DNA of 32,374 nucleotides from a bacterium (GTDB lineage: Bacteria > SZUA-182 > SZUA-191 > JAJRXT01): contig JAJRXT010000092.1 of assembly GCA_024276125.1 (NCBI GenBank), forward strand, positions 1-32,374, written 5' to 3'. A program made the translations under genes and the position numbers. This document shows, in pieces, positions 4,118-10,976 of the stretch (positions within the stretch are counted from its first letter, which is position 1; every line of letters begins with the position of its first letter). The notes below the pieces were generated by a model, which was not told where the DNA came from, did no database searches, and worked only from the letters and a program-made list of their open reading frames with translations.

Positions 4118-5026
4118 ATGAAAGATTATTACCATATTTTAGGAATCAAACAATTTGCCGCAGCTAAAGACATTAAAAAAGCCTACCGCAGGCTCGCTCT
4201 TTTATATCATCCCGATAAAAATCCTAACAATAAAGAATCAGAAGAAAAATTTAAGATTATTCTGGAAGCTTATCAAATTCTGGGGGACGAGGAAAAACGC
4301 AAGTCTTATGACTTGTTCTATGAAGCCGATTTTAAATTTGAAGATTACAGGGAAAGCCCGCCTAAGGCGTATGAATATTCTTATACGCGTACGAAAAAGA
4401 CAGCCAAAGCAACACCCGTTGAGGATAAAGATATAGACGTCTTTTCTGGAAAAAAATTCGTTCTGCATCAATTTAATGAATATATAAAAAACCTAAAATC
4501 AAGCTATACGGAATCCGTAATTTCCAAAAAACGTACGATTTGCCCCAAATGCGCAGGACGCGGAATAAGATGGCTTTTTGTATTTTGTACAAATTGTAAT
4601 AGCGCCGGTTATTGCTATGAAATAAATGATAAAAATTATGAAATTTGTCCGGCCTGCAAAGGCGCCGGCTGGGGCGACGTCTTTTTTGGCGAGTGTCTGT
4701 GCGATTATTGTCAGGGACAGGGCGTTGTAAAGCCAAAAGTCTCCGGAGGGGCTGCTTGTTTTCACTGCGGCGGCTTCGGCTGGAGTCTAAAAGACAGTCT
4801 TTGGCGCAAAATATTGTCTTTCCCCTATGGGGCGTTTATTTGTTTTAAGGAAGAGTGTTATATTTGTAAAGGCAGCGGGCGCAATCCCCAAAGAAAGGAA
4901 AAAAGTCCGGCTAATTGGTGTCCTGCTTGTCAGGGATATGGCTGGGTCGGCATAAATTTTCTGCAAAGAAAGATAATCTGCCTGCGCTGTATGGGACGCG
5001 GCTGGCGCAAAGAAAAAAAGGTTTAA
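4118..5026 (+). CDS. J-domain protein with eight CxxCxGxG-type zinc motifs
   Basis: Residues 3-68 are a canonical J domain (YYHILGI, helix [19 protein letters not shown] with HPD at 31-33), which stimulates DnaK ATPase. After a linker (70-140) come eight CxxC motifs, mostly followed by xGxG: C142/C145, C157/C160, C177/C180, C195/C198, C214/C217, C247/C250, C268/C271 and C288/C291. Classical DnaJ has four such motifs plus two substrate-binding domains; here the beta-sandwich domains are absent and the protein ends 11 residues after the last motif. I start it at ATG 4118 ([10 protein letters not shown]); the frame is open back to TTG 4079. It converges on the UroD-like gene, with stop codons overlapping in TTAA at 5023-5026. 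Probably a specialised co-chaperone; client unknown. Confidence 0.82.
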
Positions 5027-6012
5027 GTTTGCGGCATATCTATAGCGGCTCTGGCGGCATGTAGCCTCCAGTCCTGTACGTTTGGATTAAGTACGCAGCC
5101 GGGTCCTATAATCAGCCGCTTCCCCCTAGTCTGCTTTATTGCATCCAATACCTGCTGAGTTATTTGAGCTGTAGTGCCGTGAGTCATAGTTTCCTCATGG
5201 TCCAAACCCCCGACAACACAACCGCCATATTTGGCTACCGCCTCTCCTAAAGTAGGTCTGGTGCGCCGATCATGCCAATTTATAGCCTGCACCGGATAGT
5301 CTACCAATAAATCAAACATTATCTCCTCACCGTGAATATGCAGTATATTAAAGCTGGTATTATCTTCTGTGGTATTTAAGATGCGCATATCGTAGGCTTT
5401 GCCGAACTCATGGTATTTTTCCTCGCTCAATGGAGTGTAACTTGCCCACTTAGTAGCAAAAAATATCCCGTCAACGCCTAACTCTATACAGTGATGAGTA
5501 AAATCAATACTAGTTTGGGTGATTACCTCTAATCCGGCGTGTAATTGTTCAGGATAATTTTGCAGGTGGTCAAGCAATACCTCATTCCCAGCCATTTTAG
5601 AGGCCGTGGTTAAGGGAGAAAAAATTGTTTGTAACATGGGGACTTCGCCCTTTAATTGCTCAGCTAAAATTTTTATACATTCCAGTTGATTTCCCAACAC
5701 GCCTTCTGTTGGATTAAGCGGTTCTAACAGTTCCCAGTCTGTTGGTTCATGTATGGCATGGCAGCTTGCTTCGGCAGTTCTGGCGTTTTTTTCATGGGGT
5801 TTTATTTTTACTCCCCAATCGAATACTGAATAAAGACCATTGGGCATTAATTTTATAAAATCCAGATCATAGCGGTTCTGGAATTGTATAATAGCCTGAG
5901 CCAGTTTATAAGGGTTATTATCAAGCTCTGGAAAGTGATGCCATAAAGAAATAGGCGGACGGTCTACTTCCTGACCATTTATACAGGCTTGCAGGCGTTC
6001 CCTTTTGGTCAT
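5023..6012 (-). CDS. Uroporphyrinogen decarboxylase-family (URO-D) protein
   Basis: A 329-residue protein beginning [20 protein letters not shown], the standard opening of the URO-D superfamily, with later family segments ([45 protein letters not shown], and [20 protein letters not shown] near the end). True HemE decarboxylates uroporphyrinogen III. Many relatives instead act in methyl transfer (MtaA/MtbA-like) or are unassigned, and no other haem gene is nearby, so the substrate is left open. The ATG at 6012 is preferred over an upstream start because AAGGAG lies 7 bases before it. Confidence 0.82.
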
Positions 6013-8930: not shown

Positions 8931-8948
8931 TAAGCTTTGAGAATAATT

Positions 8949-9227
8949 ATGAAACTAAGACGTGGTGAAATAGAACATATTGCTGGGCGGATTGTGGGTC
9001 AATTAATTGAAAAAAATCTTCTTGACGTGGATGAGCCTGAAGCCGCTGTCGCAATAGTGATAGATATAATAACCAAAGATTTGATGATAGAAGATCGATT
9101 AAATGACGAGGTGCGTCAACTACTTGAGCAATATTCTGAAGAGGTGCAAAGAGGCGGAGTGGAGTACCATCGTATGTTTAATATGGTAAAAGCTAAACTG
9201 GTTAGAGAAAGAAATATTATTTTATAA
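8949..9227 (+). CDS. DUF507 family protein (first of pair)
   Basis: A 92-residue helical protein MKLRRGEIEHIAGRIVGQLI ... DEVRQLLEQYSEEVQRG ... NMVKAKLVRER, the DUF507 pattern. DUF507 genes occur as tandem pairs in Aquificota, Nitrospirota, Deltaproteobacteria and several candidate phyla; the function is not established. Start chosen at ATG 8949, aligning with the second copy; a TTG 12 bases upstream is in frame but less likely. It follows holB by 18 bases. Confidence 0.85.
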   Translation: MKLRRGEIEHIAGRIVGQLIEKNLLDVDEPEAAVAIVIDIITKDLMIEDRLNDEVRQLLEQYSEEVQRGGVEYHRMFNMVKAKLVRERNIIL

Positions 9228-9240
9228 GGATACTATTACC

Positions 9241-9519
9241 ATGCGCTTAAGTCGTGAGAAAATGACACAATTGTCACATTTGATTGTGAATGGTTTAATG
9301 GACGAAGAGGGAATCGGTTTTTTTAAAGACGACAATGATGTGCGGCTGGAAATTTTTAATATTATTAATGATGAGCTAATGCTTGATGATCAGCTTGATA
9401 AAAATGTAAGACAGAAGCTGGCCAGTTATTCGCGTCCTATTATGGAAGGCACCCGCGAATGGGATGTTATGTACCGCAAACTATACGAAGAAGAGCTGAA
9501 CCGCATGGGGCGCGCATAA
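9241..9519 (+). CDS. DUF507 family protein (second of pair)
   Basis: A 92-residue paralogue of the preceding gene, same length and layout: MRLSREKMTQLSHLIVNGLM, then DVRLEIFNIINDELMLDDQL and LASYSRPIMEGTREWDVMY. An AAGGA ribosome-binding site overlaps the stop of the first copy (9226-9230), 10 bases before ATG. The two probably form a heteromer or arose by tandem duplication (inference). No function is known for the family. Confidence 0.87.
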   Translation: MRLSREKMTQLSHLIVNGLMDEEGIGFFKDDNDVRLEIFNIINDELMLDDQLDKNVRQKLASYSRPIMEGTREWDVMYRKLYEEELNRMGRA

Positions 9520-9621: not shown

Positions 9622-9650
9622 TTGACTGAACCATTAACTAACGGTATAAT
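9622..9650 (+). promoter_or_regulatory. Near-consensus sigma-70 promoter of a small RNA locus
   Basis: TTGACT at 9622-9627, exactly 17 bases, then TATAAT at 9645-9650. This is among the best promoter matches noticed in the window. No start codon with a ribosome-binding site follows on this strand before the terminator at 9715-9750, so the transcript is probably non-coding. Confidence 0.65.
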
Positions 9651-9656
9651 TTATAT

Positions 9657-9750
9657 AAATTAGTATAGTATACTAGTTGTTCTCTGCCAGTGGCAGTAGA
9701 ACCTATAAAGGCTTACCGCTGAGCCCGCCTGGCGAATCAGCGGTTTTCTT
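9657..9750 (+). ncRNA. Candidate small non-coding RNA, about 94 nt
   Basis: Bounded by the promoter above (expected +1 near 9657) and an intrinsic terminator ending at 9750. It contains a compact hairpin GTTCT-c-TGCCA-g-TGGCA-gt-AGAAC (about 9678-9701). GGCT (9710-9713) could pair with AGCC (9722-9725), which excludes the terminator stem, so two alternative folds are possible. I do not recognise a known RNA family (not 6S, SRP, tmRNA or a standard riboswitch). It ends at the stop codon of the minus-strand putative RNase gene (9749-9751) and is convergent with that operon. Confidence 0.45.
9715..9750 (+). terminator. Intrinsic terminator of the small RNA
   Basis: The 8-bp stem ACCGCTGA (9715-9722) / TCAGCGGT (9737-9744) with a 14-base loop is followed by TTTCTT. 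There is no T-run on the other strand, so it points rightward. Confidence 0.7.
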
Positions 9751-10189
9751 ATATCCACTTATGGCCAAGTCGTATTTTATCTATTGTAGAAAATATTCCG
9801 CGTCTTGCTTTTGTTTCGGCAAAAAAGGCGGTAATAAAATTTGCCGTGTATTTATTAGTCAATCTAATTACTACGACATAATTTCCCATAACAATTGCAA
9901 CACGCCTAGACTTGTCATATCGTTTACGCTTTTTGTCCCAGCCTTGAAATCTGTCACTATTCGGGTCTTCTAAGGCTTTTTTAATCCAATCTATTCGCTC
10001 GGCTCGTTTTTGTGAGAAAGTGTCATCCTTTGTCCTGACAGACTCAAAAAAGCAATGGGCAAAATCACTTTTTTTAAAACGTACTGCTATATTGTCAAAA
10101 GTTACTATCGTTGTGCGACAATAAATGTTTTCAAAATGTTTTTGGTAATCATTTATTGTTTTATACTTAACTAGCGAAGGATATTTCAT
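9749..10189 (-). CDS. Small protein partnered with DUF3800; possible BECR-fold RNase
   Basis: A 146-residue basic protein with no family I can name with certainty. The C-terminal half has a charged helix (FSQKRAERIDWIKKALEDP) and then strands VAIVMGNYVVVIRL and TANFITAFFAE after the basic stretch WDKKRKRYDKSRR. That order resembles the BECR (barnase/EndoU/colicin/RelE-like) phage and toxin RNases, in which a strand ending in FITAF-like sequence is typical. I regard this as a suggestion only. Its ATG abuts the stop of the DUF3800 gene (TAA then ATG, no gap), so the two are translated together. An sRNA terminator from the other strand ends at its stop codon. Confidence 0.6.
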   Translation of the reverse strand: MKYPSLVKYKTINDYQKHFENIYCRTTIVTFDNIAVRFKKSDFAHCFFESVRTKDDTFSQKRAERIDWIKKALEDPNSDRFQGWDKKRKRYDKSRRVAIVMGNYVVVIRLTNKYTANFITAFFAETKARRGIFSTIDKIRLGHKWI

Positions 10190-10891
10190 TTACCACCCTC
10201 CGCTAAGATCAATTACAAAAACATTAAATTTTTGTTCTGCCCTGACAGTATGTTTAATTTGTCGTCCCAATTTTCCTTCAATATAACTTACCAATTTGCA
10301 CTTTGCTGTTTTATCATTGAGACAATTGTTCATTCTTGCCGCTGCAATTCCGGTCAACAGGTCGGTTAATTGAATTAATACCGATTCCTTAGAGCGGATT
10401 GCCTGAATATTGGTTATTGATGAGGAAAGGTTGGAATATGAAAGGCAGCGTTTAAAAACCTCTAACCGATCTCGTCGCCGGTTGCTCTTAAAATCGCAAA
10501 AAACCGAGTATTCATTAAAATCCATAATCCAATGATGCAGCATTTGATAGTAAAACTTATAAAACCCCAGCTCCTGGTCATTATCATGATAGTGGACAAG
10601 ATTTACCTTTTTATGCTCAACCACAATGCAGCGAAAACGTAAATTCTCCCCTTGATTCCAAAACAACTCCACCAATTCTTTATAAAAATCCAGACGGGAT
10701 GGAGTGACTTTCTGCCATTTAAACTCACCACCCACTTTGTGTTTGTCCCGTAATTGGTGAATAGCGGTTTTAAATTTCCCCCGGTTATTGGACTTAAGCC
10801 ACAAGCTGCCGATAACCATATACTGAGCTTGAGGTTTTTTAGATGACAATAAATCGGGGCGGCTTTCATCGCAATATACCTCAAATCTCAT
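10190..10891 (-). CDS. DUF3800 domain protein (RNase H-like fold)
   Basis: A 233-residue protein starting MRFEVYCDESRPD, the strand plus DES motif (D8, E9, S10) that opens DUF3800. It continues with YMVIGSLWL, the basic GGEFKWQKV segment, FRCIVVEHK, a second acidic strand YSVFCDFKSNRR, and the C-terminal IQLTDLLTGIAAA motif, whose Asp completes the proposed RNase H-like active site. DUF3800 proteins are widespread in mobile and defence-rich regions; their reaction is not established. A GGAGGG ribosome-binding site lies about 10 bases before ATG. It is first gene of a two-gene operon with the small putative RNase. Confidence 0.85.
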   Translation of the reverse strand: MRFEVYCDESRPDLLSSKKPQAQYMVIGSLWLKSNNRGKFKTAIHQLRDKHKVGGEFKWQKVTPSRLDFYKELVELFWNQGENLRFRCIVVEHKKVNLVHYHDNDQELGFYKFYYQMLHHWIMDFNEYSVFCDFKSNRRRDRLEVFKRCLSYSNLSSSITNIQAIRSKESVLIQLTDLLTGIAAARMNNCLNDKTAKCKLVSYIEGKLGRQIKHTVRAEQKFNVFVIDLSGGW

Positions 10892-10960: not shown

Positions 10961-10976
10961 GGCATTAGCTAATGCC
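10961..10976. repeat. Perfect 16-bp palindrome upstream of the DUF3800 operon
   Basis: GGCATTAGCTAATGCC is perfectly self-complementary and lies 70 bases before the DUF3800 start. It could be an operator or part of the leader. The rest of 10892-11121 shows no gene: the minus-strand tail ALANALDRRLRLINGEIEA is open for about 20 codons but has an upstream stop and no start. Confidence 0.4.

Follow-up and report, generated by a model that had tools for sequence, protein, structure and literature searches.

A DUF3800 and BECR-like protein pair with a structured RNA directly behind it: a candidate three-part conflict module in type I restriction loci and prophages

A coupled pair of genes in a bacterial draft genome, encoding a DUF3800 protein (A) and a small BECR-like protein (B), is accompanied directly behind B by a structured RNA that recurs at the same place in relatives of the pair. 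We see about an even chance that these three components constitute a mobile ribonuclease-RNA conflict module. The two proteins carry candidate active-site residues, the RNA a putative pseudoknot, and their genomic settings suggest a role in defence; read together, these sequence patterns suggest an RNA-controlled anti-phage or toxin-type switch. DUF3800 proteins, the small RNAs that recur beside their genes and the rlfAB genes of phage P1 have so far been without a settled function, and this locus joins all three. The RNA, at positions 9677-9747 of the plus strand, is the part overlooked by the first-pass annotation, an earlier reading of this DNA.

The window, i.e. the whole stretch of DNA analysed, is a complete contig of 32,374 bases (C33) from a draft genome of 2.98 Mb, belonging to a poorly sampled phylum of which nine genomes were examined. 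Its relevant features are the following:

9622-9650, plus strand: sigma-70-like promoter, TTGACT-17-TATAAT, just upstream of the RNA, with 11/12 consensus matches
9677-9747, plus strand: structured RNA of about 71 nt (model R1), convergent with B and reaching its stop codon
9679-9702, plus strand: RNA helix P1 (GTTCT CTGCC AGT GGCAG T AGAAC), from the alignment, the counts of its outer five pairs and the fold
9710-9725, plus strand: putative H-type pseudoknot, GGC at 9710-9712 with GCC at 9723-9725 in the loop of P2
9715-9744, plus strand: RNA helix P2 (ACCGCTGA ... TCAGCGGT), then TTTTCTT, a terminator-like 3' end
9749-10189, minus strand: gene B, PDC-M04B, 146 aa, from PADLOC, PBECR2 matches in homologues and a fold model
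10190-10891, minus strand: gene A, DUF3800/PDC-M04A, 233 aa, from Pfam, PADLOC and a fold model
10961-10976, no strand: perfect 16-bp palindrome GGCATTAGCTAATGCC, 69 bp before the start of A, a possible operator, not conserved

Predicted folds and active sites of the two proteins

The first-pass annotation had described a DUF3800 gene followed with no gap by a gene for a small basic protein, together encoding two possible nucleases, and both open reading frames are as it gave them. Protein A begins with MRFEVYCDES, contains QLTDLL and matches the Pfam DUF3800 family (PF12686) with an E-value of 1.7e-13 (52 bits, the curated cut-off being 21); the TAA of A is directly followed, in the same frame and with zero gap, by the ATG of the 146-residue B. 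Both proteins also match the profiles of PDC-M04, a candidate defence pair in PADLOC with the same two-gene order: A matches PDC-M04A over residues 2-230 (1.8e-74) and B matches PDC-M04B over residues 1-140 (2.9e-51). As listed in PADLOC, however, the candidate comprises two proteins only and lacks the RNA; no paper naming PDC-M04 was recovered in the literature searched.

The structure of A was modelled with AF2 within a read-through fusion of the natural zero-gap A-B junction (pLDDT 93.2, pTM 0.75). Foldseek searches with the A model recovered RNase HII (1eke, 5.2e-6, probability 1.0) and further RNase HII/H2 structures. Across 25-26 homologues the residues D8, E9, D133 and D177 are invariant, as are E56, K58 and W59, and the four acidic positions are retained in RlfA of phage P1 and in a Mannheimia phage protein. 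Given the model, we infer that these four residues are a candidate type-2 RNase H metal site. Earlier work had already predicted that DUF3800/RlfA adopts an RNase H fold (PMC10910872, PMC3710099). Searches with A found no match to the Pfam family PF01351, of whose motifs the DE is present in A and the GRG absent, and a sequence search of the PDB likewise gave no match. Homology of A to RNase HII at the level of sequence was considered and rejected (hhalign probability <1%), and the likeness is at the fold level only.

No Pfam family is assigned to B of the window, which falls below the threshold of PBECR2 (PF18810), but nine of 30 B homologues match this family at E<0.01 (best 1.1e-5). The AF2 model of B, built with 29 homologues (pLDDT 90.7, pTM 0.84), consists of helices followed by four strands. 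H45, R62 and T120 are invariant in 30/30 homologues, and most of the distant versions, RlfB among them, retain these residues as well, which makes them candidate active residues. The His lies in the N-terminal helix and the Thr in strand 4 of the four-stranded sheet, as in BECR proteins; the PBECR2 phage nucleases share this topology, with the His in the N-terminal helix and the Thr in the last strand (PMC5512222), but B differs from them in being the solo partner of a DUF3800 protein. In Foldseek searches B had no significant match in the PDB (best E 0.62, the weak matches including YafQ, ParE and BrnT), while in the viral library it recovered phage polyvalent-protein domains (best 6.5e-6). 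Neither a PDB sequence match nor a close phage relative by tblastn was found for B. Thus, the BECR-like fold proposed from strand order alone in the first-pass annotation is favoured by the homologue profiles, the helix plus four-strand model and the invariant His and Thr, but obtains no significant PDB match; on profile and predicted topology we regard B as BECR-like.

The pair is accordingly best described as two predicted nucleases, one RNase HII-like in fold and the other BECR-like, translated together. A complex between them is no more than possible on the fusion model, with its pTM of 0.75. Neither the BECR assignment of B nor the RNase HII-like fold of A was found in the sources searched; the pair itself is already known as the PADLOC candidate and, in P1, as rlfAB.

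Conserved pairing of A and B across genomes

Conserved pairing of the two genes, which had been anticipated, was examined by searching with B alone and then asking for A, and the reverse, so that the test is not circular. A B-only scan with one genome per species recovered 16 loci from Pseudomonadota, Desulfobacterota, Bacteroidota, Planctomycetota, Verrucomicrobiota, KSB1 and other groups: in 13 A lies immediately upstream, one retains only the tail of A, and two are remnants of B. Conversely, in A-only scans of viral contigs B adjoins A in 14/14 cases. Among 392 genomes from the phylum of a Pirellulaceae locus A accompanies 8/8 full-length B genes, the other two B matches being fragments. 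Among 385 genomes from the class of Pararhodospirillum a strong A is followed by B in five of six cases, the sixth being a truncated A beside HsdR; weaker DUF3800 genes in the same sample occur without B. Intact A and B relatives are thus adjacent almost without exception, in whichever direction the search is made. The gap between them in relatives ranges from -7 to +7 nt, and translational coupling is therefore general.

A structured RNA directly behind B

Reading of the DNA 3' of B at every locus revealed a two-hairpin element, which was aligned from 31 loci, the window included, to give the covariance model R1. The element is present directly behind B in all 31 aligned loci. Over 17 base pairs, 96.9% of 513 cells in the alignment can pair, versus 27-42% after a shift of one side by 1-3 columns, and 65 cells show two-sided (compensatory) changes versus 22 in shuffles. 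Five pairs of P2 show such two-sided changes; the inner five pairs of P1 were left uncounted, as their offset varies between groups. The putative pseudoknot consists of three GGY/RCC pairs crossing P2, which are paired in 31/31 sequences, the third being CG in 20 and UA in 11. The minimum free energy of the window copy has a z-score of -3.1, and R1 recovers it with 82.1 bits (E 8.2e-19), the second-best match in the window scoring 9.7 bits. In the restriction-modification (RM) loci a short conserved ORF that follows B was also weighed as a possible third protein, but it was discarded because the conservation pattern tracks base pairs and not codons.

G-U pairs at columns 5-28, 9-24 and 45-72 would be mismatches if read on the other strand, and hence the RNA is convergent with B in the window and at most loci. 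The promoter-like site at 9622-9650 is called on its position and score, as the number of such sites around the RNA is at background. In six prophage loci the RNA is instead codirectional with the genes, and several of these have a TTGACA/TATAAT-like box before it and a terminator-like hairpin after it, which indicates that it is an independent unit.

These observations bear on the simplest reading of the locus, an ordinary protein toxin-antitoxin (TA) system in which A would be the antitoxin to B, a BECR toxin, and the RNA would be a mere transcription terminator. The gene order, the translational coupling, the size and predicted fold of B, and the U-run in which P2 ends in the window are all compatible with it. 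However, A keeps an invariant predicted nuclease site and no DNA-binding domain was found in it, and the RNA shows covariation in a second helix as well, contains the pseudoknot and, in prophages, has a promoter-like site ahead of it. We therefore consider such a system distinctly unlikely. The conflict or TA-type module of the first-pass annotation fits with the PDC-M04 profiles, the RM operons and the prophages, but as a plain protein TA system it is incomplete, since the RNA belongs to it too.

Applied to loci outside its alignment, R1 matches at two intact pairs (L025, L078) and at four loci (L080, L018, L103, L107) in which A or B is broken or missing; retention in the latter could be due to chance. 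Nothing above noise was found by R1 at control loci or at DUF3800 loci lacking B. A scan of viral contigs with a 20-mer RNA pattern returned 64 contigs, mostly by chance, from which five RNAs were confirmed by R1, two of them adjoining an A-B pair. Two further viral copies lie without A-B in the stretch examined (L153 9212-9285, minus strand; L168 5070-5135, plus strand); for another, at L133 8651-8716 on the minus strand, the stretch stops short of the relevant side. L133 and L168 share a source genome. Such RNA-only viral copies could be antitoxin decoys or relics.

Relation to other DUF3800-associated and antitoxin RNAs

RNAs have been described next to DUF3800 genes before (PMC10910872), and the Rfam DUF3800 RNAs (DUF3800-V, -VIII, -IX and others) share with the window RNA its small size, structured nature and 3' placement. 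Four such RNAs were found, each convergent with and 3' of a sister DUF3800 gene, whether or not a B gene accompanies it:

L081 2337-2407: DUF3800-VIII RNA, convergent, 3' of a DUF3800 gene
L082 1307-1371: DUF3800-VIII RNA, convergent, 3' of a DUF3800 gene
L083 2138-2207: DUF3800-IX RNA, convergent, 3' of a DUF3800 gene
L108 1275-1370: DUF3800-V RNA, convergent, 3' of a DUF3800 gene

A convergent RNA at the 3' side thus seems to be general across the DUF3800 superfamily. Nevertheless, no Rfam DUF3800 family matches the window RNA or its relatives: at gathering scores the DUF3800 covariance models gave no match to any of them, and neither a search of the RNA region with E up to 10 nor one of the whole window at gathering scores yielded a DUF3800 RNA or another credible match. 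The RNA family, its pseudoknot and its fixed place behind B were not found in the sources searched, though some earlier-described DUF3800 RNA motifs may be absent from Rfam, and the window RNA could be listed among those.

In its combination of predicted endoribonucleases with a small, putatively pseudoknotted RNA the A-B module resembles the type III TA systems ToxIN and CptIN. The type III antitoxin RNA is described as multiple repeats accompanying an endoribonuclease toxin (PMC8860590). The A-B RNA, in contrast, is single-copy, downstream, usually convergent and preceded by its own promoter-like site; no repeat array of the type III kind was found at the A-B loci, where the RNA is a single copy and a separate unit. 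Set against the pseudoknotted type III partner, its pseudoknot is one of 3 bp with one covarying pair in 31 loci. The proteins differ as well, being RNase H-like and BECR-like rather than ToxN-like.

Alternatively, the RNA may be a guide, a cofactor or a processed product of A and B, which would strike phage nucleic acid directly instead of being restrained toxins. DUF3800 proteins occur as RNase H-fold accessory nucleases at some Cas12a2 and VI-F loci (PMC10910872, PMC12669027), structured RNAs recur by DUF3800 genes even without B, and the A-B RNA is single-copy and, from its promoter-like site, separately transcribed, unlike the type III antitoxin arrays. But it contains long invariant blocks without a variable spacer-like segment, and it is kept at loci that have lost A or B. 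On balance a guide-type function appears rather doubtful to us.

Association with type I restriction systems and prophages

Genes of type I RM systems (hsd) occur in the same stretch as A-B in 19 of the 31 loci (L003-L006, L008, L009, L011-L014, L017-L019, L022-L025, L027 and L028), and a further one, L007, has a ResIII-type helicase only. As a general estimate rather than a computed rate, a gene picked at random seldom has a type I locus within 8 kb. About ten of the 19 hsd loci show the order hsdS-A-B-hsdR. Other loci (L029-L031) are prophage settings with A-B beside terminase, endolysin or integrase genes, and a few, including the window copy, are solitary. At L024 a Shedu gene (4574-6001, SduA C-terminal domain) lies between hsdS and the A-B pair, adding another defence gene to that operon.

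The embedding of RNase genes between hsdS and hsdR is shared by many A-B loci with EcoprrI-PrrC, whose genes are in the order prrA-prrB-prrC-prrD. In that system prrC is embedded in the type I EcoprrI operon (PMC3874165, PMC3710099). PrrC is, however, a HEPN-ABC ATPase protein, whereas the A-B module has two other predicted nucleases and an RNA. By analogy the pair might be an accessory of type I RM, a latent ribonuclease that the restriction complex keeps inactive until a phage inhibits this complex. This would suit the hsdS-hsdR placement in about ten loci and the hsd genes in 19 of 31, which recall prrC in EcoprrI, as well as the DarTG-like genes, identified by sequence reading, in an hsdS-hsdR slot of the window's genome. 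Against it, the solitary window copy and the prophage copies have no RM neighbor and yet retain the RNA, and hence it is the RNA, and not the RM complex, that is the constant partner. Dependence on the restriction complex in this manner is accordingly unlikely.

The rlfA-rlfB pair of phage P1

A distant version of the pair is found in phage P1, whose RlfA is about 32% identical to A (tblastn) and whose rlfB, the next gene, overlaps rlfA by one base and matches PDC-M04B with an E-value of 1.3e-51. The DE/D/D and F-x-H/R/T residues are kept in RlfA and RlfB, but RlfB belongs to another B subfamily and R1 finds no RNA at the locus. Short hairpins (L088 4151-4230) lie directly behind rlfB, in the manner of the DUF3800-RNA theme and without an Rfam match.

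The annotation of these P1 genes as possibly associated with lytic replication, together with the presence of the pair in several prophages, could be taken to mean that A-B is a phage-derived helper of replication or RNA processing with no role in defence. Yet CRISPRi scored rlfA and rlfB as non-essential for P1 growth (PMC10695390), and it is in restriction operons of many phyla that the pair is concentrated; we hold this older reading to be very improbable.

A proposed mechanism

In the three-part module that we favor, A would act as a type-2 RNase H-like nuclease and B as a BECR-type endoribonuclease translated from the same message, while the small pseudoknotted RNA would come from a separate transcription unit that immediately follows B. 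In the uninfected cell the RNA would bind the pair and silence both proteins in the manner of an RNA antitoxin. A phage disturbing transcription might cause the RNA to be lost or titrated and thereby release A-B; alternatively, in RM loci the release might follow loss of the restriction complex. The freed proteins could then jointly attack RNA, or an RNA-DNA hybrid, in the infected cell and in this way arrest growth or provide a second line of defence.

The RNA itself may be a restraint, a guide or cofactor, or a substrate, and it could also function as a terminator. Restraint of A-B is the role that we prefer, at a little short of an even chance. The retention of the RNA in broken loci and the RNA-only phage copies fit what is expected of an antitoxin-like or decoy RNA. 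If the RNA restrains the pair, this would be an RNA-antitoxin architecture unlike the known type III systems; if it guides the pair, a new RNA-dependent nuclease would be at hand. The fuller picture, namely an obligate RNase HII-like and BECR nuclease pair spread over many phyla, its activity governed by a single-copy pseudoknot RNA with transcription of its own, serving as a second line in type I RM operons and countered by phages with an RNA-only decoy, is tentative and, taken in its entirety, somewhat improbable.

The window copy and its neighborhood

The first-pass annotation placed the pair apart from housekeeping operons, and its flanks are indeed unrelated housekeeping genes, with holB and DUF507 on one side and lipA on the other. 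No RM genes adjoin it within the window. In the same-family genome G007 neither A nor B was found beside lipA, and among the nine genomes of the phylum the PDC-M04B profile has a match only in that of the window; the pair was therefore probably acquired horizontally. The pair and the window are similar in GC content, which is neutral on this question.

The palindrome that had been singled out upstream of A is present and occurs once in the genome, but with four perfect 16-bp palindromes in the window it is at background level and was dropped as a diagnostic feature. A second DUF3800 gene of the same genome (G000:C113:49361-49906, L039) has no RNA match to R1. Elsewhere in this genome, contig C34 (L033, 438-4227) carries a separate type I RM remnant with hsdS and a truncated hsdR at the contig edge, and between these lie genes that read as DarT/DarG-like, another toxin-type module in the hsdS-hsdR slot. 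Within the window, DUF507 (8937-9519) is divided between two successive ORFs, one matching the N-terminal and the other the C-terminal half of the Pfam model.
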